From: Adhaeribacter radiodurans
GTDB taxonomy: Bacteria; Bacteroidota; Bacteroidia; Cytophagales; Hymenobacteraceae
NCBI RefSeq assembly: GCF_014075995.1
Contig: NZ_CP055153.1
Location: 3,224,001 to 3,288,000 of the forward strand
Length of the DNA: 64,000 nt
Reading direction: 5' to 3'
Shown: positions 1-12,263 of the stretch, piece by piece
How positions within the stretch are numbered: position 1 is the first letter of the stretch
Layout of the letters: the number at the start of each line of letters is the position of its first letter
Made by a program: the position numbers and the translations under genes
The notes under the pieces: model-generated
Database searches by the model: none
The model's input: only the letters and a program-made list of their open reading frames with translations
What the model was told of the DNA's origin: nothing

Positions 1-728
1 GCTGCAGCTAAACCGGCGGGGCCTGCCCCTATAATTACCACATCGTATAAATTAGCGGCAGCAGTAACGTTTAAGCCAATTTTGGTAGCCACACTTAACA
101 AATCCGGATTTGCTAAATAACTACCATCTTCAAAAAAGAGAGCCGGTAAATTTTTAGCATCCATTTTACTTAAATCCAGTAATTCCTGAGCTTTAGAATT
201 TGTCTGGATATCCAGCCATTGATACGGAATTAAGTTTCCGGCCAGAAAATCTTTAATAAGGTGCGATTGCGGCGACCACTGAAAACCTACCAGTTTAATA
301 CCCTGAAAATCTGGTTTAAAATTAATAAGCCAATCATCGAGCAAGTCGTCTAATATAGGATATAATTTTTCTTCGGGTGGGTCCCAAGGCTTCATTAAAT
401 AATAATCGAGTTGCACTTTGTTTATGGCCTGAATAGCGGCATTAGTATCAGAATAAGCCGTTAGAAGTACGCGTTTTGCATCGGGATAATTTTCTTTGGC
501 TTGTTCCAGAAAATCAACTCCTTGTAAGCCAGGCATTCGCTGATCCGACAGAAATAAAGCTACCACTTCGCTTTTCAGCTTTAATTCTTTTACTATTTCC
601 AGTGCTTCTTCACCCGACTCCGCGGTTAAAATGCGGTACTCTTTTCGGTATTTTTTACGCAAATCCCGCTCAATTGCCCGCAGTACCTGCGGATCATCGT
701 CGATAACGAATATAATAGGTTGCTTCAT
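1..728 (-). CDS. Response regulator fused to thioredoxin-reductase-like flavoprotein (partial, C-terminus outside window)
   Basis: The reading frame opens at an ATG at 728 and is still open at base 1, giving 242 visible residues. Residues 1-125 form a CheY-like receiver: acidic pocket DDD at 10-12, probable phosphoacceptor Asp62 in LSDQRMPG, Thr90 and Lys113. Residues about 145-220 look like a thioredoxin/glutaredoxin-fold linker. From 228 a FAD-binding Rossmann motif begins (VVIIGAGPAGLAA, GxGxxG). The family is known as fused response regulator/thioredoxin-disulfide reductase. The cognate kinase is very probably the next gene on the same strand, which has a cyclic-nucleotide-type sensor domain. 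Inference: phosphorylation gates a redox output. The catalytic CxxC of the reductase would lie outside the window, so activity cannot be judged. Confidence 0.9.
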   Translation of the reverse strand, partial: MKQPIIFVIDDDPQVLRAIERDLRKKYRKEYRILTAESGEEALEIVKELKLKSEVVALFLSDQRMPGLQGVDFLEQAKENYPDAKRVLLTAYSDTNAAIQAINKVQLDYYLMKPWDPPEEKLYPILDDLLDDWLINFKPDFQGIKLVGFQWSPQSHLIKDFLAGNLIPYQWLDIQTNSKAQELLDLSKMDAKNLPALFFEDGSYLANPDLLSVATKIGLNVTAAANLYDVVIIGAGPAGLAA

Positions 729-904
729 TTACCTTTACCCCTAATTAGTAGATGGATTATTATTTCTAGAAAAAATTACTTTGCTAATAAAGGCACAGTT
801 AAACTAATTCTTTCTATATAGTTAAGAATTATTTACAAAAAAAAGCGAACCAGTAAAACACAGCAGAAAAATTGGGAATTATATATTAGTTCTTAAAAGG
901 ATTA

Positions 905-2386
905 CTAAACAAACTTTTCTTGAGTGCAAAGTTCTAAATTTATGGGTAAGCAAACTTTAAACACGGTTTTGCCGGTTTCTGATTTTACTTTAATAGAACC
1001 CTTGTGCTGATTAACAATAATACGTTGCGAAATTTCCAGACCTATGCCGGTGCCCTTTCCTACACCTTTGGTAGTAAAAAACGGTTCAAAAATGCGTTCC
1101 TGAATATCCAGCGGAATACCTACTCCATTGTCCTGAAACTCAATTGAGACCATATTTTCGTCAATGGGATCGATATAGGTCCGAATTTTAATTATTCCTT
1201 TTGGCGGAACCGCATCAATGGCATTATCGAGTAAGTTGGTCCAGACTTGGTTGAGCTCGCTACCGAAGGCATGGATTTGCGGGATGTTCGTACCAAATTC
1301 TTTTACAACCTCAATTTCCTTTATTTTTAATTTATGATTTAAAATTATAAGCGTATTGGTAATGCCTTCGTGTAAATCAATGTTTTGGTACTGCGATTCC
1401 TGATCCATGTAAGTATACGCCTTTATGGCCTGAAGGAGAGTGCTGATCCGTTCGGTACTTTGCTTTAATTCCTGCGCTAAAAGGCGCATTTCAATATCTT
1501 TGGGCATCCAATGCAGGAAATTAATAATGTGCTCCGGTAACAACTGTTCCGCAAATTCGGCCAGCATGTCGCGGGTTATTCCTACTGATACAAAAACAGA
1601 GGCTACATCCCAGGCATCTTCTACCCCTTGCTCTTCGAGCCAATCCAGCAGTTCATCTTCGCGGTCGTTTTTTTCGAGGGTATTTAATTTTAAACCTTCG
1701 AGCTGCATTTTTTCATAGAGCGGCAAAAAAGGATCACCGGGTAAGTTTTTTTCTTTAAAAACAACGTCTTTCAACATCTGCGACGAGTGCGTATCAAAAG
1801 CTTCCAAAGTATTTAGTAAATTTTGAGATGCTCGTTTCGCCGCCGATGCCGGATTATTTAATTCGTGGGCCAGCCCCGCCGACATAGTGCCCAAGGAAAT
1901 TAATTTTTCGCGTTGGTTGGTAAGCGTATTTATTTCTTTTGTGCGTTCTGCCATGTTGGCTAAAATTCGTTTGCGCACAATAGAGCAACTGCCCATCATT
2001 TCCCAGAATTCATCTTCGTAAATAACAAACAGCTTTACATCTGTTAAAGCAACTGCATTACCGGGGTGCGGGGTTCCGGCCAATAAAGGAACTTCGCCTC
2101 CGGTCATGCCGGGTGTAAATTTATTAATGAGTAAGCGTTGCCCGCGTACAATCCGGTAAATTTGCAAAGTACCTTCTAATACTACCACAAACAAACGGGC
2201 AGGTTCTCCCTCCTGCCACATAATTTCGCCCCGGCGGTATTCTTTTATTTCACCTACAATATCGCAGCTTAATTGTTCATTGCTTAATCCTTCGAAAAGC
2301 GAAATATTACGAAGGGTTTCTAAGGGCAAAGAAATCCGGGGATCTTTCTTCCGGGCAGGCTGGGTTTGTACGGTTTGTTCTTCCAT
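905..2386 (-). CDS. Sensor histidine kinase with N-terminal cyclic-nucleotide-binding (CNMP-like) domain
   Basis: A 493-residue soluble kinase with no membrane segment. Residues about 25-145 form a cNMP/CRP-type beta-barrel domain (EGTLQIYRIVRGQRLL, GGEVPLLAGTPHP). The phosphoacceptor His174 lies in LGTMSAGLAHELNNPAS, a HisKA of the HELNNP type. The HATPase_c domain covers about 365-480, with N box NLLDNAIDA, G1 DNGVGIP, FEPFFTTK and G2 GTGIGLEIS. It lies upstream of the response-regulator/flavoprotein fusion on the same strand with a 176-bp gap, and 18 bp after the small gene that precedes it. CNMP-kinase plus regulator-TrxR pairs are a recurrent arrangement; the ligand is unknown, and many such domains do not bind cAMP. 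Confidence 0.92.
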   Translation of the reverse strand: MEEQTVQTQPARKKDPRISLPLETLRNISLFEGLSNEQLSCDIVGEIKEYRRGEIMWQEGEPARLFVVVLEGTLQIYRIVRGQRLLINKFTPGMTGGEVPLLAGTPHPGNAVALTDVKLFVIYEDEFWEMMGSCSIVRKRILANMAERTKEINTLTNQREKLISLGTMSAGLAHELNNPASAAKRASQNLLNTLEAFDTHSSQMLKDVVFKEKNLPGDPFLPLYEKMQLEGLKLNTLEKNDREDELLDWLEEQGVEDAWDVASVFVSVGITRDMLAEFAEQLLPEHIINFLHWMPKDIEMRLLAQELKQSTERISTLLQAIKAYTYMDQESQYQNIDLHEGITNTLIILNHKLKIKEIEVVKEFGTNIPQIHAFGSELNQVWTNLLDNAIDAVPPKGIIKIRTYIDPIDENMVSIEFQDNGVGIPLDIQERIFEPFFTTKGVGKGTGIGLEISQRIIVNQHKGSIKVKSETGKTVFKVCLPINLELCTQEKFV

Positions 2387-2404
2387 GATTGTTCGCGAAA
2401 TAGT

Positions 2405-2704
2405 TTAGGATAAATGAAGTTTAGCCATTAAAGCAGCTGAGCCTGGATCGGAATATACGCCATAAGCATTGACCAGTACGCCTTTGGTGCCATTCTTACC
2501 TTCAATGGCGTATAAGATGGTGCTATCTGCCGGATCGGTTGGCCCTTCGAAACGGTAAAATTCCGTGACATTAAAATCCTGCGGATATAACTTTAAATTG
2601 ATTTCGGCACATTCCAGGCATTCTTGCGCCACGTTAAAATTGTAGGTATAACCCCGTCTTTTTAAATCCTGTAGAGCCTCTACTAAGGTATCAAACTGTT
2701 TCAT
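2405..2704 (-). CDS. Small conserved protein, first gene of the CNMP-kinase operon
   Basis: 99 residues starting at ATG 2704, stopping 18 bp before the kinase start, so very probably cotranscribed. No signal peptide or membrane segment. Visible marks are a Cys pair (QECLECAEINL) and an acidic, aromatic core (FYRFEGPTDPADSTILYAIEG). From memory, close relatives in Bacteroidota are often labelled 'phosphoribosylpyrophosphate synthetase', but the protein is about one third of a PRPP synthetase and shows neither its PRPP loop nor its ATP flag, so that label looks unsupported. Function unknown; position suggests a role connected with the redox two-component module. Confidence 0.75.
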   Translation of the reverse strand: MKQFDTLVEALQDLKRRGYTYNFNVAQECLECAEINLKLYPQDFNVTEFYRFEGPTDPADSTILYAIEGKNGTKGVLVNAYGVYSDPGSAALMAKLHLS

Positions 2705-3088: not shown

Positions 3089-4873
3089 ATGATTGTAAAA
3101 GCCGGGCCGGTGCAGGCATTTTATGAAAAAGGTTTTCTGCGGTATATACAAACAGCAGGGCACGAAACAGTACGGATGATTTATTTTGCGATACGTGATC
3201 AGGATTGGCAAACCATACCGGGCACCCTTTCCGATGAACATATCCAAACTACAGAAGATACTTTTACCATTAGTTATACCTACCACCTGAACCACGAAGA
3301 TATTCAAATGGAGTGGCGGGCTAAAATTAATGGTCAACCAGACGGCACTATAACCTTCGATCTTTATGGCTTGGCTAAGAGCAACTTTTTAAGGAATCGG
3401 GCGGGTTTTTGCGTGTTGCATCCCATTACCGGAGTAAGCGGGCAAGCTTGCCGGTTAGAACATCCGGATAACAGTTTTACGTACAGCACCTTTCCTAATT
3501 TTATTAGTCCGAACCAGCCCTTTCTTGATTTAACGGCTATGGAGTGGCCGGTTGGTGAACAAGGATTAGCCCGCCTGGAATTTAGCGGAGATATTTTTGA
3601 AACCGAAGACCAACGTAACTGGTCCGATGCTTCTTTTAAGACGTATTGCACGCCTTTAAGTAAGCCCATTCCGGCGCAGGTAAATTCCGGCGACGAAATA
3701 AAACAACAAGTTATTTTCCGGTTGGTCAAGCCCGTACCAGCGGCGGAGGCGCGCACCAAACCCGTTTCGCAGATTTACCTTCAATCGCAGCCCGTATCTT
3801 TTCCTGAAATAGGTTTAGGTTTAAATGCAACTAATTCAGATCTTACTTCAAATGAATCAGATTTTTTGCAACGATTAGGGTTAAAGCACCTTCGGACCGA
3901 TATTTTCCTAAATCAGGCTAGTTGGTTAGATCAACTTAAAAGAGCCATTCGCCAGAGCAGCGCCTTGAATATTCCTTTAGAACTGGCTTTATTTTTCGGG
4001 GAAGATGCAGCCCAGGAGGTTAACCAGTTTTTAAATTTTATTCAATTACAGGAAGTACAATTGAAAAGCATTTTACTTTTTGAAGCTGCTAGTCGTTATA
4101 CCACGGATAATTTATTGCAAAAAGTAGCTTTGGCTATTCGTACTGTTTATCCAGGAGTGCTGCTGGGTGGTGGTAGCGATGCGAACTTTACTGAATTTAA
4201 CCGGCATCCTTTTACGTTTACCTCCACTAATTTTATAACATACGCCATTAACCCGCAGGTACATGCCTTTGATGATTTAACCTTAATTGAAAATACCGCA
4301 GCACAGGCCGATACCGTTAAAACCGCTCAGCACATTGCCGGTAAGCGCCCAATTTATATTACGCCGGTTACATTACAACCTCGTTTAAACGAAGAAACGG
4401 CATCAGACCAAACAAAATTTACTAATTCCTTTGATCCGCGGCAGCCAACTGATTTTATTGCCGGCTGGACTTTAGCAAGTCTCAAATATTTAACTGAAGC
4501 AGGAGCTGCCTCCATTACCTATTTCGAAACTACTGGCCCTCGCGGCATTTACCAGGAAGATCATCCTTTTGCCGTAGGACATTTATTATACTATATACTT
4601 TCTTTTAAACCAACGCAGGTTTTACCCACTACTTATCCGGAGCCTTTAAAAGTAACCCCTCTCCTATTAACCAAAGAAGCGGCCGCCTGCCTGATTGTAA
4701 CTAATCATACTGCCGAACCACAGTCGGTAATACTACCAGAAAATTTTACGGTGCATACGCATACAATCATTGGCAATAATACCGGTAAAACTTCTTACCC
4801 TAATTATATACCAGGCGCTCCATTAACTCTTTCGGCTTTTCAAACAATTGCTTTAGATGGTGTATTACTCTAA
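3089..4873 (+). CDS. Probable D-apionate lactonase-like protein
   Basis: 594 residues, no signal peptide, so probably cytoplasmic. The N-terminal half is beta-rich and carries blocks I associate with the D-apionate lactonase (ApnL) family: NRAGFCVLHP about residue 102, then FISPNQPF, FETEDQRNWSDASFKTYCTPL about 170-192. The middle (about 240-480) looks like a TIM barrel (LGLKHLRTDIFL, VLLGGGSDANFTEFNR), and the C-terminal 100 residues look like a small beta-domain. ApnL enzymes open D-apionolactone to apionate in breakdown of apiose, a sugar of plant RG-II pectin. No other apiose gene is adjacent, although uronate genes lie 37 kb away. The assignment is from remembered family motifs. Confidence 0.6.
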   Translation: MIVKAGPVQAFYEKGFLRYIQTAGHETVRMIYFAIRDQDWQTIPGTLSDEHIQTTEDTFTISYTYHLNHEDIQMEWRAKINGQPDGTITFDLYGLAKSNFLRNRAGFCVLHPITGVSGQACRLEHPDNSFTYSTFPNFISPNQPFLDLTAMEWPVGEQGLARLEFSGDIFETEDQRNWSDASFKTYCTPLSKPIPAQVNSGDEIKQQVIFRLVKPVPAAEARTKPVSQIYLQSQPVSFPEIGLGLNATNSDLTSNESDFLQRLGLKHLRTDIFLNQASWLDQLKRAIRQSSALNIPLELALFFGEDAAQEVNQFLNFIQLQEVQLKSILLFEAASRYTTDNLLQKVALAIRTVYPGVLLGGGSDANFTEFNRHPFTFTSTNFITYAINPQVHAFDDLTLIENTAAQADTVKTAQHIAGKRPIYITPVTLQPRLNEETASDQTKFTNSFDPRQPTDFIAGWTLASLKYLTEAGAASITYFETTGPRGIYQEDHPFAVGHLLYYILSFKPTQVLPTTYPEPLKVTPLLLTKEAAACLIVTNHTAEPQSVILPENFTVHTHTIIGNNTGKTSYPNYIPGAPLTLSAFQTIALDGVLL

Positions 4874-5010
4874 TTTTGATTTTCTCTGTTGCTTTTTATT
4901 ATGAAATGAAATTAAATTATCAAATCGACTGGAAAAGGAGAGTCAATAATTTTTTTAGTAATAAGTAAGCAGAACAGCAAACTGCCGGACAGATAATCTT
5001 TAGAATTAAC

Positions 5011-5671: not shown

Positions 5672-5706
5672 AAGCCTTCGGTTATGAACGAAGGCTTTTT
5701 ATTTTT
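5672..5706 (+). terminator. Rho-independent terminator after the zinc-ribbon gene
   Basis: Nine-bp perfect stem AAGCCTTCG / CGAAGGCTT (5672-5680 and 5689-5697) with an 8-nt loop, followed by a T-rich tail. It ends where an alternative TTG start for the next gene would lie, which favours the later ATG start of heme oxygenase. Confidence 0.9.
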
Positions 5707-5729
5707 TGATAATAGAGTCTGGATTTTTT

Positions 5730-6308
5730 ATGATTTTAGAAGCTTTAAAAGCTAGAACTGCCACCAGCCACCGTAATGTAGAAGCTAGTCCTTTAATGCA
5801 ACCCATTGCTAACCGTACGTTAACTCCGGAAAATTACACGCAGATTTTGCGTAAGTTTTACGGTTTTTTTCAGCCTTTAGAAAACGCCATTCACCATGTA
5901 GCTGGTTTAGAATATTACCTTCCCGACTTAGCTACCCGAAGAAAAGCTGCCAGTATTTTGCAGGATTTGCGGGCTATTCACCAGGAAAATATTGTGCTTG
6001 CTACCTTACCCCTTTGCCCCGATGTACCCATTATTTCTGATTTTAATGGTGCTTTAGGTGCTTTGTACGTAATGGAGGGCTCAACATTAGGAGGAAAGTT
6101 TATTTCCAAAATTGTGTATGAAACTTTAGGTTTTACTCCCGAAAACGGAATCGCTTTTTTTAACGGCTACGGTACGCAAACCGGTCCTAAGTGGAAGGCC
6201 TTCCAGGAAGCTTTAAGGCGTTATACTTCCACTTCTACCCAGGAAGAAGCAATTGTAAATTCTGCCACCTGTACTTTTCAAAAATTAGAAGTTTGGTTTA
6301 ATAATTAA
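5730..6308 (+). CDS. Biliverdin-producing heme oxygenase
   Basis: 192 residues from the ATG at 5730; an upstream in-frame TTG at 5706 lies in the terminator tail and is unlikely. Bacterial heme oxygenase features: proximal His14 in LKARTATSHRNVEAS, and the distal-helix motif YVMEGSTLGGKFIS, where the flexible Gly segment lies over heme. The reaction is O2-dependent opening of heme to biliverdin, CO and iron, needing an external electron donor. It lies 13 bp before a bacteriophytochrome core, the classic bphO-bphP arrangement in which the enzyme supplies the chromophore. Confidence 0.92.
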   Translation: MILEALKARTATSHRNVEASPLMQPIANRTLTPENYTQILRKFYGFFQPLENAIHHVAGLEYYLPDLATRRKAASILQDLRAIHQENIVLATLPLCPDVPIISDFNGALGALYVMEGSTLGGKFISKIVYETLGFTPENGIAFFNGYGTQTGPKWKAFQEALRRYTSTSTQEEAIVNSATCTFQKLEVWFNN

Positions 6309-6321
6309 TTATAAATTTTAA

Positions 6322-7863
6322 ATGGATATACCCACCAGTAAAAATTACGATTCGGAGTTTTGCGGCAGTTTACCCCTGCATTTTATAAACCTGGTGCAAC
6401 CACACGGTTTTATTATGGTGGTGCAAAAAGAAACCTTTTTAATCCGGCAAATCAGCGAGAATGTAATTGATTTACTAGGAACAACGCCTACCGAATTACT
6501 TAACCGAAATTTGGCCGATATTATTTTGCCGGAACAAATGGAGGTTATTCGTCGCAAAACACAGCAATGGAATATTGAAGACCGGATACCGGAAAATGTT
6601 TCTTTTACTATCAATAACGCGGAGCAAAAGTTTAGTGCCGTTATTCATACCAAAGAGAACTATATTTTATTGGAACTTGAGCCCAACGTTTCGCCGGTGA
6701 CTAGCAGCGAGCTGGATTTTGTGCACATTTACCAGGAAATCATGTTTATTTTAGCGGCCTTCAAAAAAGCCGACTCTATTCAGAAGTTGAGCCAGATTGC
6801 CGTATCGGAAATTAAGAAATTATCTGGCTTTGACCGGGTAATGATTTACCAGTTCGATAAAAACTGGAACGGCAGCGTTTTGGCCGAAGCCTTGGAGCCC
6901 GACATGCAGCCTTATTTAAATTTATGCTTTCCAGCCTCGGATGTTCCTCGCAACGCACGTGATTTATATTTAAAGAATTCGTTCCGCCTGATACCTAACC
7001 GGGAATACACGCCAGCCCGGTTGGTACCGGTTTTAAATCCCATATCTTCTAATTTCACCGATTTGTCGGATTGTAATTTGCGCAGCGTGGCTAATGTGCA
7101 CTTGCAATATCTAAAAAATATGGGAGTACAAGCTTCTATGTCCACTCCTATTGTTAAAGATAATGTGCTTTGGGGTTTAATTTCCTGCCATCATAAAACG
7201 CCTAAAAACCTCTCGTTCGAGATGCGCTCGGCTTTTGTTTTATTATCATCTATTATTTCGGCGCAGGTTGTAGCCAAAGAAAACGAATACAGCTTAGGGC
7301 AGATAAATAGTTTAAACGATATTTTTACAAGGCTATTAGCCCAGATGTACAACGAGCAAGATTTCAGGCAGGGCTTAGTTCGGGGAGCTTATACCTTAAA
7401 TCAGTTATTTACAAGTTCGGGAGCAGCTGTAGTGTTAGATGGCGAAATTAAGAAAGTAGGTAAAACACCCACCAACGAAGAAATTAAAAGTATTGTGCAT
7501 TGGCTGCAACGGTCCCGGGTTAATAAAATACATACTACCGAAAACTTAGCCCAAGCTTTAGAACCTGCCGTTAACTATAAAGAGGTAGCGAGTGGCTTAA
7601 TTGCGCTTCCTATTGCGCTGGAAAGAGGCGATTATATTTTAGGTTTCCGGGAAGAAATGGTTCAGACGATAAGCTGGGGCGGCAATCCTAACCAGGCCAT
7701 TACCATGGAACCGGATGGAAAAACTTACCACCCGCGTAATTCATTTGCCGTTTGGCAGGAACAGGTAAAACATACTTCCTTACCCTGGTCGGAGCAAGAC
7801 GTACACGTGGCCGAGCAATTGCGCATTGCCGTTTTAGAACGCATTGTGAGGGATACTCACTAA
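6322..7863 (+). CDS. Bacteriophytochrome photosensory core (PAS-GAF-PHY) without kinase domain
   Basis: 513 residues. The N-terminal PAS segment carries Cys14 (EFCGSLPLHFINLVQPHG), in the position of the biliverdin-attaching Cys of bacteriophytochromes. The GAF domain (about 135-310) has the PASDVP motif at about 204-209 and His260 in VHLQYLKNMG. The PHY domain (about 320-510) has the tongue WGG and PRNSF motif (471-475). All chromophore-contact signatures are present, so photochemistry is expected. The protein ends right after PHY: no HisKA, GGDEF or other output. Output is probably delivered by protein contact with the hybrid kinase encoded 266 bp downstream. Confidence 0.93.
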   Translation: MDIPTSKNYDSEFCGSLPLHFINLVQPHGFIMVVQKETFLIRQISENVIDLLGTTPTELLNRNLADIILPEQMEVIRRKTQQWNIEDRIPENVSFTINNAEQKFSAVIHTKENYILLELEPNVSPVTSSELDFVHIYQEIMFILAAFKKADSIQKLSQIAVSEIKKLSGFDRVMIYQFDKNWNGSVLAEALEPDMQPYLNLCFPASDVPRNARDLYLKNSFRLIPNREYTPARLVPVLNPISSNFTDLSDCNLRSVANVHLQYLKNMGVQASMSTPIVKDNVLWGLISCHHKTPKNLSFEMRSAFVLLSSIISAQVVAKENEYSLGQINSLNDIFTRLLAQMYNEQDFRQGLVRGAYTLNQLFTSSGAAVVLDGEIKKVGKTPTNEEIKSIVHWLQRSRVNKIHTTENLAQALEPAVNYKEVASGLIALPIALERGDYILGFREEMVQTISWGGNPNQAITMEPDGKTYHPRNSFAVWQEQVKHTSLPWSEQDVHVAEQLRIAVLERIVRDTH

Positions 7864-8129
7864 AAAATTTTGCTATTAGATTATATGTTCTAACTAAGAG
7901 TATTTTATTAGAACTTGTTATTTTAAGGTAATTATAATAAATTAAATATAGATTTTTACGCAACTATAAATTTCAGATAATCAAATTTTCAGCGTCAAAA
8001 TCTTAATTTTAGGCCAACTTAAATCTTTAGTAGAGTGGTAATCAGCTGCAAATTGCAAAATAGGATCATGGCAAAGCTGCTTATCTTGGCTACTATTTGA
8101 TTTATAGTTAATGGCTTCGGCAGAACAGA

Positions 8130-11100
8130 ATGGAAATAGAATCAACAAGCAACAGCTTACTTTCCGAATCGCTATACCAACCACGCGAGTTAGTTTCCCG
8201 AGCCCGGACAACCGATTTTTTTGTAGTAGCCATTGGTGCTTCTGCCGGTGGATTAGATGCTATCAACGAATTTTTCGACCATTTACCCTCTAATACCGAA
8301 GCTGCATTTGTTATAATTCAACACCTTTCGCCTACGCATAAAAGCTTAATGCCCGAATTGCTGACGAAGCATACTACTATGCCTATTTCGGAGGCGCGCG
8401 AAGGTTTAATGCTGCAGCCTAATTCCATTTACCTAATTCCGAATAAAAATACCCTTACCATACAGCAAGGCAAACTGAGGTTAGCCGAAAAAAATCAAAA
8501 CCCGGTACCTAACCTGGCTATTGATACTTTTCTGCATTCTTTGGCTACCGATAAGGGCAGCAAAAGTGTAGCTGTAATTTTATCTGGAACCGGCAGCGAT
8601 GGTACCCGTGGTTTAGAGGCTATAAAGTCGGCGGGTGGAATAGTAGTGGTACAGGACCCCGTTACGGCTCACTTTGATGGTATGCCCAATAGTGCTATTG
8701 CTACCGGATTAGCAGATGCCGTGTTGGCTCCTCCTCAAATGGCAACTTATCTTATAAATTACTTTGAAAATAATTCCAATTTACCAGGTACCCTTACTGA
8801 TGATACTTCTTTAAAAAGTAATTCCGTACTGGAAGCAATTCTGGAATATGCCAAAGATTCCTGTGGCCTCGATTTCACCTCGTATAAACGGCCTACTCTG
8901 TCCCGCAGGGTTGCGAAAAGAATGCAGGAAATTAACTTCGATTCGTACGATAAGTATCTGGCCTATTTAAAAGAAACGCCCTCGGAAATACAACATTTAT
9001 GCGGAGATTTCTTAATTAATGTTACGCGTTTTTTTCGCGACGAACGTGCTTTTGCCCTACTTGAAGAAAAAGTAATCCCAGAATTAATACGGACTAAAAA
9101 TAAGGACGAAGGAATTAAAATATGGGTGGCAGGTTGCAGCACCGGCGAAGAACCGTATTCGCTGGCCATGTTGGTCGATACTTACTTAACCAAGCATAAA
9201 ATTTACTTACCGGTAAAAATATTCGCTACCGATGTAGATAAAGAAGTTATTCAGATTGCTTCGCGTGGTATTTATCCCGAAAGTATAACCCAGGTGTTGC
9301 CGCCGCCAATGTTGGCTAAGTATTTTGTGCGCCGCAGCAACGATTATATTGTGTGTGAACCCATCCGCAAAATGATCATTTTTGCGCACCACGATGTAGG
9401 TAAAGATGCCCCATTTAGTAAAGTAGATTTAATAAGTTGCCGCAACATGCTTATATACATGGACGGCAGCTTGCAACATAAAGTACTACAAGCTTTTCAT
9501 TTTGCGCTAAACATAGGGGGATTTTTATTTCTGGGTCCTAGTGAGAATTTAGGCGCTTTAAAGCATTATTTCGCCGAAATAAGCCGTAAATGGAAAATAT
9601 TTAAAAATCTGGAAGCTTCGCGCAAAACGTTGCCCCAAAATATAATGGTGCGCCAATTACAAGTTGATTCGCGAATTCCTGAACCTTCCAAGAATAAAAG
9701 AAATAAACAAAGTATTCAGCAACATATAGGCGATATTTTTAATAGTACTCTGGTAGAAGAATATAATTACGCCGGAATTTGCATCGACGAAAACTATCGG
9801 CTGTTGCACGCTATTGGCGATTACAAAAAATACTTAGACTTGCCCGATTGGCAATTGCAATTTAGTTTAACTAAAATGGTTCCCGAAGATTTGGCTGTAA
9901 CACTGGGTGCTTCTATTAGAAAAGTAGCAAAAACCAATCAAAAAGCTATTTTACGAAACGTAAAGCTAACCCGTAATGGCTCCTCGCAAATAATTAATAT
10001 TGTAATCAAACCATTTTTGGGAGGCGAATACAACGAGCGGTTTTTATTTGTTTTATTTTCGGAAGCTATCCTGCCTAAAAATCAAAAGGCAAGAACGCAA
10101 CATATTTCTGCTTCGAACCACCATGAGCAAATTATTGCTTTAGAACAAGAGCTTAATGAAACTAAGGAAAACTTATACTCTACTTTTGAAGAACTAGAAG
10201 TATCAAACGAAGAGCTGCAATCGAATAATGAGGAATTACTCTCGGCTAACGAAGAACTACAAAGCACCAACGAGGAACTACAATCGTTAAACGAAGAGTT
10301 GCATACCGTTAACACCGAACATCAACAAAAAATCAAAGAGTTAATTGAATTAAACGAAGATCTGGATAATTATTTCCGCAATGCCGATATCGGACAAATG
10401 TTTGTGGATCAACAACTAACTATAAGGAAGTTTACTCCTGCAATTATTAACCAGATTAATTTAATTCCGAGCGACATTGGTCGGCCGCTTGCTCATTTCT
10501 CCAATAATTTATTATATAATCATTTTATTGAAGATATTCAAACGGTAATAGATACCGGTAACCGCATTGAAAAAGAAATTCAAATAAGGAATGGCAGTTA
10601 TTATTTGATGCGCCTGGCTCCTTATTTAAAACAAACCAATAAATTAGACGGTGTAGTTATAACCTTTGTAGACGTAACCCTATTAAAAAATTTAAATAAT
10701 ACTCTTCAGGGTATTTTAAACAGTTCCATTAATGGTATTGCTGCTTTAAAAGCAATTAGAAGCTCCGATAATCAAATTATTGATTTTGAATGGAGCATGG
10801 CCAATGAGGCTTTTGGCCGTTTATTAAAGAAAGATCCCATGCAATTTCCTGGCAAAAGTTTACTCACCGAAATGCCGGGCATGAAAAAGAGTCGATTATT
10901 TAATCGTTTTGTACAAGTAGTAAACACCGGCGAATTACTAAATTTTGAACATTACTACGAATATGATGAACTGGAGAGTTGGTTCCATACAGTAGCCACT
11001 AAAGTAGAAGATGGACTAACTGTTACATTTGCTGATATTACCGAGAAAAAAATAGCCGAGCAAAAATTATTATCGGCTTACCAGGAATTGCAGTCAGCGG

Positions 11101-12263
11101 AAGAAAATCTTAAAAAATTAAACAACCAATTAGAAGAACGTATTGGCGCACGTACCCGGGAACTATCAGCGAGTGAAGAGCGCTTCCGGCTTATTTCTCT
11201 AGCCACCAACGATGTTATCTGGGATTGGACCATGATGAACAACAAGGTATGGTGGAATGAAGGTTTTAAAACGATGTTCGATTATACTTCGGAACAAATA
11301 GAGCCTGGGGTAGAATCGTGGTTTGATCGCATTCATCCCGAAGACAAAGATCGGATTATAAGTAGTTTAAACGATGCCATCAATAGCAGCCAAGAGCAAT
11401 GGTCGGCCGAATACCGCTTCCGGAAAGCCGATGATTCGTATGCTTATGTTTTTAACCGGGCGTTTATCATCTTAAACGAAAACCGAATTCCTTACCGGAT
11501 GTTGGGTTCATTAATTGATTTAACTAATTTAAAGTTAGCGCAGGAAGAACTGCGTAAAACTAATGTAAACCTACTGCGCATTAATAACGATTTAGATAAT
11601 TTTGTTTATACCGCCTCGCACGACTTAAAATCACCAATCTCCAACATAGAAGGCTTGTTGTACCATCTGGAATTGGAGTTGGAAAATGCCGATGACCATA
11701 TTCTGGAAATTCTGAGTCATATCAAGAAGTCCGTCGATCGGTTTAAAGCTACCATTAAAGACCTGGCAGAAATTACCAAAGCCGAAAAGTTGGATGCAGA
11801 TGATGTGGCGGAGGTAAACATAGAAGATTTGGTGGAAGATATTAAGCTTAGCATCAATAACTTAATCGAAGAATCAGATGCTGTTATAGAAATTAACTGC
11901 CAGGAGTGCCCCACCATCAAATTTTCTAAAACCAACTTACGAAGTATTTTATACAACTTAATTAGTAATTCTATTAAATACCGCGACCCAGATCGACCAT
12001 TGCTCATCCGAATAGCGACGGAGAAAACAAAGGATCATGCTATTTTAACGGTTAAGGATAACGGATTAGGAATTGAAGAAGCACAGCAATCTAAGTTATT
12101 TGGCATGTTTAAACGGTTCCACAACCACGTAGAAGGTTCGGGAGTAGGTCTTTATATTGTTAATAAAATTGTAAAAAATGCCGATGGCAAAATTGAAGTG
12201 TTTAGTAAACCAAACCAAGGTACTACTTTCAAAATATTACTAAAAAGTGAGTTAGATAGTTAA
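8130..12263 (+). CDS. CheB-CheR-coiled coil-PAS-histidine kinase hybrid
   Basis: 1377 residues. CheB methylesterase at 29-210 keeps the triad Ser38 (GASAGG), His65 (QHLSPTH) and Asp157 (GTGSDGTRG). CheR methyltransferase at about 232-490 has the SAM loop VAGCSTGEEPYS and SCRNMLIYM. A coiled coil with NEELQS-type heptads covers about 655-740, followed by about three PAS domains (the last with WDWTMMNNKVWWNEGF). HisKA His1164 lies in YTASHDLKSPISNIEG. HATPase_c covers about 1265-1375, with NLISNSIKYR, DNGLGI and GSGVGLYIV. No receptor partner or CheA is nearby. It follows the phytochrome core on the same strand and is the best candidate for its output. No receiver domain is present. Confidence 0.92.
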   Translation: MEIESTSNSLLSESLYQPRELVSRARTTDFFVVAIGASAGGLDAINEFFDHLPSNTEAAFVIIQHLSPTHKSLMPELLTKHTTMPISEAREGLMLQPNSIYLIPNKNTLTIQQGKLRLAEKNQNPVPNLAIDTFLHSLATDKGSKSVAVILSGTGSDGTRGLEAIKSAGGIVVVQDPVTAHFDGMPNSAIATGLADAVLAPPQMATYLINYFENNSNLPGTLTDDTSLKSNSVLEAILEYAKDSCGLDFTSYKRPTLSRRVAKRMQEINFDSYDKYLAYLKETPSEIQHLCGDFLINVTRFFRDERAFALLEEKVIPELIRTKNKDEGIKIWVAGCSTGEEPYSLAMLVDTYLTKHKIYLPVKIFATDVDKEVIQIASRGIYPESITQVLPPPMLAKYFVRRSNDYIVCEPIRKMIIFAHHDVGKDAPFSKVDLISCRNMLIYMDGSLQHKVLQAFHFALNIGGFLFLGPSENLGALKHYFAEISRKWKIFKNLEASRKTLPQNIMVRQLQVDSRIPEPSKNKRNKQSIQQHIGDIFNSTLVEEYNYAGICIDENYRLLHAIGDYKKYLDLPDWQLQFSLTKMVPEDLAVTLGASIRKVAKTNQKAILRNVKLTRNGSSQIINIVIKPFLGGEYNERFLFVLFSEAILPKNQKARTQHISASNHHEQIIALEQELNETKENLYSTFEELEVSNEELQSNNEELLSANEELQSTNEELQSLNEELHTVNTEHQQKIKELIELNEDLDNYFRNADIGQMFVDQQLTIRKFTPAIINQINLIPSDIGRPLAHFSNNLLYNHFIEDIQTVIDTGNRIEKEIQIRNGSYYLMRLAPYLKQTNKLDGVVITFVDVTLLKNLNNTLQGILNSSINGIAALKAIRSSDNQIIDFEWSMANEAFGRLLKKDPMQFPGKSLLTEMPGMKKSRLFNRFVQVVNTGELLNFEHYYEYDELESWFHTVATKVEDGLTVTFADITEKKIAEQKLLSAYQELQSAEENLKKLNNQLEERIGARTRELSASEERFRLISLATNDVIWDWTMMNNKVWWNEGFKTMFDYTSEQIEPGVESWFDRIHPEDKDRIISSLNDAINSSQEQWSAEYRFRKADDSYAYVFNRAFIILNENRIPYRMLGSLIDLTNLKLAQEELRKTNVNLLRINNDLDNFVYTASHDLKSPISNIEGLLYHLELELENADDHILEILSHIKKSVDRFKATIKDLAEITKAEKLDADDVAEVNIEDLVEDIKLSINNLIEESDAVIEINCQECPTIKFSKTNLRSILYNLISNSIKYRDPDRPLLIRIATEKTKDHAILTVKDNGLGIEEAQQSKLFGMFKRFHNHVEGSGVGLYIVNKIVKNADGKIEVFSKPNQGTTFKILLKSELDS

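Follow-up and report, generated by a model that had tools for sequence, protein, structure and literature searches.

A receiver-linked, thioredoxin reductase-like flavoprotein with both redox-cysteine sites replaced, and its partner kinase, in Adhaeribacter radiodurans and related loci

A receiver (REC) domain joined to a predicted thioredoxin reductase (TrxR) has been described from archaeal metagenomes (PMC5847659), and TrxR-like enzymes without the CxxC motif are known as TrxR-like ferredoxin-NAD(P)H reductases (FNRs), many of which were first annotated as TrxR (PMC10294844). Bacterial mini-proteins of the UBP-type zinc-finger family (zf-UBP) have likewise been catalogued across several bacterial phyla (PMC2602986). 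Here we describe a locus at the start of a 64,000-nucleotide stretch of Adhaeribacter radiodurans DNA (the window; contig NZ_CP055153.1, positions 3,224,001 to 3,288,000, in our coordinates G000:C2:3224001-3288000) that encodes a histidine kinase and a response regulator in which a REC domain, a glutaredoxin (Grx)-like domain and a TrxR-like domain are fused. Judged by its sequence, the fusion protein has both redox-cysteine sites replaced and retains the motifs for FAD and NAD(P)H along with many residues specific to the family, and the kinase appears to be a soluble enzyme with intact boxes and a degenerate cyclic nucleotide monophosphate (cNMP)-like sensor, paired genome by genome with the fusion. 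The interpretation we favour, which we hold tentatively and at somewhat less than an even chance, is a two-component system in which phosphorylation would control an NAD(P)H flavoprotein switch that works without protein thiols and serves in low-molecular-weight-thiol or electrophile stress. The section on the archaeal protein in PMC5847659 makes no mention of lost cysteines, of a kinase partner, of a zinc finger or of ergothioneine. Apart from that report, a search of the open-access literature, mostly without subscription papers and with ergothioneine itself not searched, found nothing on the fusion, the zinc-finger pairing or an ergothioneine link; the consulted part of PMC8945050 does not treat the family.

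Three genes had been proposed at positions 1-2704 by an earlier note on this DNA, made from the sequence alone: a 99-amino-acid (aa) gene, a kinase with a cNMP domain and the start of a REC-TrxR-like fusion. All three are present, on the minus strand (Table 1). The fusion open reading frame (ORF) shows 242 aa in the window, ending in GAGPAGLAA; the rest of the gene, beyond the window end, was read from the adjoining DNA of the same genome (L003), and this outer part holds two sites discussed below, YYGAATTEA and the dinucleotide motif GGGNSAGQ. The full protein of 553 aa matches Response_reg (PF00072, 4e-18, residues 6-118) and Pyr_redox_2 (PF07992, 8e-32, residues 228-539), and the proposal that the regulator's output is a flavoenzyme, with no DNA-binding domain, is upheld, the output being a TrxR-fold flavoprotein. 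The acidic pocket D10-D12 of the REC domain, together with D62, T90 and K113, is invariant in 54 aligned homologues. Searches of the genome found a single fusion (E 1e-15), a single kinase of this type (E 1e-20) and a single zf-UBP gene at the thresholds applied; its ordinary TrxR was the only other match in the fusion search.

Between the REC domain and the flavoenzyme lies a third domain (residues ~122-226) that is absent from the earlier note and is Grx-like. The Pfam Glutaredoxin model gives a weak match in 25 of 36 members (E up to 1, best 1.5e-4), and HHalign against intact glutaredoxin repeats returned a probability of 97.7 and an E of 2e-12 in that single comparison. Because the structure matches of the full model (see below) covered mainly residues 223-552, the Grx-like domain of a Rhodocytophaga homologue (L008) was folded alone, giving a mean predicted local distance difference test score (pLDDT) of 81.8. 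Its nearest structures are Trx/Grx proteins, with 3zit as the best Foldseek match (E 9e-4, TMt 0.85, root-mean-square deviation (rmsd) 1.5 Å). At the Grx site the window's protein has SPQS for CPxC. Across an alignment of 79 homologues, made up of 78 loci and the window genome and lacking two of our 81 loci (L022 and L077) for which the ORF caller did not return the gene, the first position of this site is Ser in all 79 and the second is Ser in 78 and Thr in one. In a wider set of 26 family members, the first position is Ser or Asp throughout.

The second site was examined by aligning the fusion to solved thioredoxin reductases and to the TrxR of its own genome (312 aa), and YYGAATTEA stands at the position where the latter has CAVC. 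With SPQS for CPxC and YYGAATTEA for CxxC, the window's protein, like its close relatives, thus has other residues at both thiol sites. CxxC occurs at the site in 0 of the 79 aligned homologues, in all of which G359, T363 and E364 are invariant and columns 352-367 hold no Cys. It is also missing from all 25 further members, of which 12 come from Cyanobacteriota, Actinomycetota, Deinococcota, Pseudomonadota and Gemmatimonadota records, 10 from our phylum sample and 3 from rhizobia or Burkholderia. A single homologue of the 79 (L015) has CRGC a few residues past the site, and the Deinococcus aquaticus protein has a CECC elsewhere in the chain that is unrelated to it. This loss of cysteines is not decay, since 18 positions carry, in 25 or all 26 of the family members, a residue that differs in all three cysteine-containing outgroups (e.g., Y358, Q384, R531 and H547; gaps were scored as different at R506 and, in one outgroup, at G489), and since the acid after the CxxC position is Glu in 24 of the 26. 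The FAD motif GAGPAG and the NAD(P)H Rossmann motif GGGNSAGQ are both intact.

A comparison of the fusion with its described relatives shows both shared architecture and marked differences. The best sequence matches in the PDB are CxxC thioredoxin reductases (4zn0, 9e-43). The fusion shares with TrxB the fold, the FAD GxGxxG and the NAD(P)H motif, but it lacks the CxxC, is joined to REC and Grx-like domains and scores below the cut-off of the TrxB equivalog model (TIGR01292, 218.5 bits against 343.45). AhpF (1hyu, 4xvg), which is among the top Foldseek matches of our model, also joins a TrxR core to a preceding Trx-fold domain within one polypeptide. In AhpF the cysteine pairs are retained, whereas the fusion has both sites replaced and a REC domain added, and its score with the AhpF model is 131.6 bits against a cut-off of 502.9 (TIGR03140). 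A natural contrast is provided by the cysteine-intact Grx-Grx-TrxR fusions of two genomes (L112:2184-3641 in G042 and L113:3397-4809 in G154), which have the same order of Grx-like and TrxR-like domains and can be aligned with the family, but which have two Grx repeats, have no REC domain, and keep CPDC, CPDC and CATC in the same columns where the family has no such motif. We know of no TrxR-like FNR that has a REC or Grx-like domain, and the fusion is distant from these enzymes in sequence (~1e-12). A TrxR fold without CxxC is common to both (PMC10294844). Plasmid records contain proteins of the same family under the names "FAD-dependent oxidoreductase" and "cyclic nucleotide-binding domain-containing thioredoxin-disulfide reductase", the latter a misleading name, as the four members read (L094-L097) have no CxxC at the site. 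Databases label as thioredoxin reductase part of a family that cannot be that in the usual sense.

The 493-aa kinase matches cNMP_binding (PF00027, 6e-17) and HATPase_c (PF02518, 2e-23), and its H box, N box and G boxes are all kept; the kinase alignment comprises 75 of 78 kinase-cluster genes (>380 aa), with L037_8750 and L080_3014 among them being other proteins. The cNMP-like sensor domain seen by the earlier note is real, but its presumed ligand is less secure. Cyclic-nucleotide domains such as that of CRP carry an Arg in the phosphate-binding cassette, and inspection by eye found no such residue in the window kinase (HPGN) or in the usual partner kinases (ITGxLPxSR), which makes cyclic nucleotides a doubtful signal.

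That the kinase is the regulator's genomic partner is borne out by its distribution. In 296 Bacteroidota genomes, searched with a full-length profile of the REC form and with the kinase counted at E 1e-20, the kinase is present in all 41 fusion genomes, which span 18 families, and in 0 of the 255 others. The Grx-like profile matched 47 of these genomes, of which the 41 full-length cases were counted and the weak-only G042, G103, G122, G138, G154 and G182 were set aside. The kinase lies on the same strand and no more than 2.5 kb upstream of the fusion in 34 of the 41 genomes, and in 75 of our 81 loci at most 0.7 kb separates the end of a kinase gene of this family from the fusion downstream of it. 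Members with the REC domain were read from Bacteroidota, Cyanobacteriota, Actinomycetota, Deinococcota and Pseudomonadota.

The window kinase differs from the usual Bacteroidota type and falls in a supported clade with L104 and one of two kinases of the Rhodocytophaga locus; it is 63% identical to this Rhodocytophaga kinase and 34% to the other one of that locus. These two different kinases precede the Rhodocytophaga fusion in a row (L008:2303-5958) consisting of a 99-aa gene, a small glutaredoxin (CPKT), kinase 1, kinase 2 and the fusion, whereas the window genome holds one kinase of the family. The gap between kinase and fusion in the window is 176 bp; it was considered as a remnant of the usual partner kinase and rejected as such, the best match being no better than E 0.3. 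On a Caballeronia plasmid (L093), two genes annotated "ATP-binding protein" (3484-4914 and 6659-8062) that group together in the kinase tree flank one fusion gene.

An AlphaFold2 model was made for the Rhodocytophaga homologue (L008), which is 71% identical to the window fusion, using 54 sequences (mean pLDDT 87.6). Residues 225-552 of this model match TrxR (3r9u, Z 31.3, rmsd 2.6 Å over 299 residues), and FNR structures are among the fold matches as well (8c16, Z 26.0; 6gar, Z 25.2). The model fits 5mh4, titled as the FR conformation, at 2.6 Å versus 8.5 Å for 5mjk, the same enzyme titled as FO. In the FR conformation the flavin is faced by NADPH and not by the dithiol, and the flavoprotein is accordingly modelled in an FR-like, NADPH-to-flavin pose, as a prediction only.

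Downstream of the fusion, 98 bp away and beyond the window, is a gene for an 89-aa UBP-type zinc finger (C2:3222699-3222968), which scores 51 bits with PF02148 against a cut-off of 22.7; its best solved relative is 2ida. Such a gene adjoins the fusion downstream in 41 of the 81 loci and lies farther off in three more, while 37 show no zinc finger, some of them having little downstream sequence. In the phylum sample of 296 genomes, the family is found in 25 of 41 fusion genomes versus 6 of 255 others. Three of these six (G122, G138 and G182) have a Cys-less form without REC and one (G042) has a Cys-intact Grx-Grx-TrxR; G085 and G286 gave no match. In Tsukamurella and Streptomyces fungicidicus, too, a zinc-finger gene adjoins the kinase and fusion, and other records have the fusion and kinase with no zinc finger nearby. 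Among plasmid records, several zinc-finger genes have no adjoining flavoprotein, and those of Rhizobium, Agrobacterium and Burkholderia have one beside them. In addition, an Na_H_Exchanger-TrkA_N (Kef-like antiporter) protein carries the zinc finger as a C-terminal fusion, tested with Pfam in four genomes (L104-L107) and assigned in L121 from annotation and a zinc-finger match. In L104, L105 and L106 this fused gene lies in one uninterrupted run with those of the kinase and the REC fusion, and the best NCBIfam model tested for the L104 antiporter was KefC, below its cut-off. The zinc finger belongs to the same small family as the catalogued mini-proteins, for which the consulted part of PMC2602986 gives no partner or role, and the pairing described here is a lead on the function of bacterial UBP zinc fingers.

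Ergothioneine genes are among the recurrent neighbors of the operon. EgtB was recognized with TIGR03440 (540.6 bits, cut-off 360) and EgtD with PF10017, the latter scoring slightly under the cut-off of TIGR03438 (287.7 against 290.9). Both genes occur in the flanks of 13 of the 81 loci, in varied arrangements (Table 1). Across 242 genomes of the window's order, with the fusion counted at E 1e-20 and EgtD at E 1e-60, EgtD is present in 134 in total, namely in 90 of 91 genomes with the fusion versus 44 of 151 without (Fisher 3e-31, statistics that here and below ignore kinship). When the window's family is excluded the figures are 59 of 60 and 34 of 141 (p 3e-25). Fusion and EgtD are no more than 12 kb apart on one contig in 16 of the 90 genomes. 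In the phylum sample EgtD is found in 36 of 41 fusion genomes versus 56 of 255 others, counted over the 92 genomes with strong PF10017 matches; the model's own cut-off is loose, matching also in E. coli, and 102 of the 296 genomes match at E 0.001 and 96 above the cut-off. The near one-way dependence of the fusion on egtD in the order (90 of 91) offers a testable lead on bacterial ergothioneine management.

In the mechanism we envisage for the non-thiol switch, the kinase would detect a cytosolic ligand or redox state and phosphorylate D62 of the receiver, and phosphorylation would alter the association or conformation of the TrxR-fold dimer. NAD(P)H would reduce the flavin, and electrons would go straight to a small molecule or partner with no protein dithiol being made; alternatively, the flavoprotein may merely report the NAD(P)H state through its conformation. 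The zinc-finger protein would be the likely protein partner where it is present. Ergothioneine in Bacteroidota, and Kef-like cation antiporters in some lineages, would place the system in low-molecular-weight thiol or electrophile stress. The two-component output would then be a Grx-TrxR chain whose thiol active sites have been swapped out and whose flavin site is under strong constraint.

A number of observations weigh against this interpretation. Binding of FAD and NAD(P)H by the fusion is predicted from motifs only, and the arginines that contact the NADPH 2'-phosphate in TrxR (motif HRRxxxR) are partly kept (IRG), with R401 invariant in 54 homologues and the others replaced. The FR-like pose is one AlphaFold2 prediction for a 71%-identical homologue with a low-confidence stretch omitted. 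Cysteine loss is incomplete in the wider family, as three of the 26 members (L094, L097 and L099) have Cys at the second Grx-site position, and the zinc finger is missing from 16 of 41 fusion genomes. With regard to ergothioneine, egtD is unlinked to the locus in the window genome (C2:2623172) and in 74 of the 90 fusion genomes of the order, where breaks between contigs may conceal linkage; in the phylum sample EgtD is lacking from five fusion genomes, and 44 genomes of the order carry it without the fusion. Within the window's family EgtD is present in all 41 sampled genomes, with (31) or without (10) the fusion, and the co-occurrence may come from shared lifestyle or ancestry, at least in part. 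Finally, the flavoprotein could have a purely structural role, an option which is considered below.

The flavoprotein might turn over in the manner of a TrxR-like FNR, which we regard as unlikely but as deserving serious consideration. The precedent of CxxC-less enzymes first annotated as TrxR would allow it, as would the FNR structures among the fold matches and the two intact nucleotide motifs. However, the sequence is much closer to CxxC thioredoxin reductases than to FNRs, and the six neighbor clusters identified by Pfam include no ferredoxin or flavodoxin, the other clusters not being identified.

A role of the flavoprotein part as a pseudoenzyme or as a sensor of ligands, adjusting the receiver or the zinc-finger partner according to its occupancy by NAD(P)H or FAD and without turnover, is rather improbable. 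The replaced catalytic thiols would be in keeping with such a role, as would a sister form in which the same cysteine-less Grx-TrxR part carries a cNMP-like domain in place of REC, as if that part were a regulatory module in both branches, but the strong conservation round the flavin and the Glu retained at the TrxR acid position suggest that chemistry persists. The sister form is found also in Gemmatimonadota. In Streptomyces angustmyceticus and Rhodococcus its neighbors are a zinc finger, trxA and clpB, which it does not adjoin in Deinococcus aquaticus and Paraburkholderia; in G122 a clpB relative is followed by a cysteine-less Grx-TrxR protein without REC. Adjacency of clpB to the cysteine-less Grx-TrxR part was thus seen in two phyla (L095, L096 and L110), in Actinomycetota with trxA and the UBP zinc finger too, and a link to protein quality control is possible.

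A more specific proposal is that the fusion supplies the partner, linked to NAD(P)H, that ergothioneine is missing in bacteria. Under control of the kinase, it would reduce ergothioneine or its oxidized forms, or sense their redox state, directly at the flavin and with no protein cysteines, the UBP zinc-finger protein being its adaptor and a Kef-like antiporter one downstream target. We consider this improbable.

A genuine disulfide reductase working through other cysteines is very unlikely. A semi-conserved Cys at column 368, present in 66 of 79 homologues and 19 of the wider 26, would be a candidate, but the window's protein has Ala there, and none of its only three Cys (453, 470 and 514) is invariant. 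The proposal of the earlier note, namely that phosphorylation directly controls TrxR-type disulfide reduction in a module that includes the 99-aa Cys-pair protein, can hardly be sustained: the overall TrxR fold and the nucleotide motifs agree with it, and of the two motifs it proposed to check in the missing part of the reductase the NAD(P)H motif is present, but the CxxC, whose loss it named as refuting, is gone, as are the Grx cysteines, the TrxB score is below the equivalog cut-off, and the 99-aa gene is unlinked elsewhere.

In the window, a 99-aa gene encoding CLEC does precede the kinase, as the note had observed, but the expectation that it accompanies the pair is contradicted by the other loci. 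It adjoins the kinase-fusion pair in 2 of 81 loci, the window genome and L008; in L063 a relative lies 2.7 kb downstream on the other strand, and the nearest other cases in the 296 genomes are 7 kb (G166) and 11 kb (G072) away. The family occurs in 80 of the 296 genomes, 18 of 41 with the fusion versus 62 of 255 without (p 0.013), and we have rejected it as a member of the module. Searches with Pfam and NCBIfam models gave no match to the protein at E 0.001. The window genome has two further copies of the family (C2:2138080 and C2:6096404), of which the L006 copy keeps CLEC and the L007 copy is without it.

Table 1. Coordinates of the features discussed. Unprefixed positions are those of the window; prefixes denote other loci (L) or the genome and contig (G, C).
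Feature	Position or loci	Strand	Remarks
99-aa gene	2405..2704	-	ORF 2704..2405, has CLEC; widespread Bacteroidota family; beside the operon, not judged a module member
Soluble histidine kinase, 493 aa	905..2386	-	cNMP-like domain, DHp with GLAHELNNP (H box), HATPase_c; clade apart from the usual Bacteroidota partner kinase
Fusion gene REC - Grx-like - TrxR-like, 5' part	1..728	-	residues 1-242 of 553; continues to G000:C2:3223067
REC domain, fusion residues 1-121	366..728	-	PF00072, 4.3e-18; D10-D12 acidic pocket, D62, T90, K113
Grx-like domain, fusion residues ~122-226	51..365	-	SPQS (S152-S155) replaces CPxC; HHalign 97.7; Foldseek 3zit
Start of TrxR-like flavoprotein domain	3..50	-	GAGPAG FAD motif
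zf-UBP-Kef-like fusions	L104:1267-3315, L105:3575-5602, L106:3668-5701, L107:1971-4100, L121:3213-5249
egtB/egtD just upstream of kinase	L019, L031, L078, L084	same
egtB/egtD downstream	L011, L039, L051, L052, L057	same
egtB/egtD upstream	L013, L014, L085	other
egtB/egtD 4.7 kb away	L087

Other neighbors recur less often. A betaine-type ABC transporter is found near 14 of the 81 loci, and we do not claim it as the ergothioneine importer EgtU: its substrate-binding domain comes before the permease, the reverse of the domain order in EgtU as given in the consulted part of PMC9732360, and NCBIfam models match it below threshold, with choline and betaine ones best. A role in anti-phage defence was rejected, there being no PADLOC match at 1e-5. 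A bestrophin-type channel gene is near the operon in 13 of the 81 loci (e.g., L013:8092-9012) and on a Nostoc plasmid (L088:8084-9094). A MatE transporter gene flanks nine loci (L041, L042, L044, L046, L050, L061, L069, L077 and L079) and is upstream on the other strand in the eight that were placed. Elsewhere in the window, positions 5706-12263 appear by eye to hold, in this order, genes like those of a heme oxygenase and a phytochrome and a large CheB/CheR/PAS/kinase-like gene.

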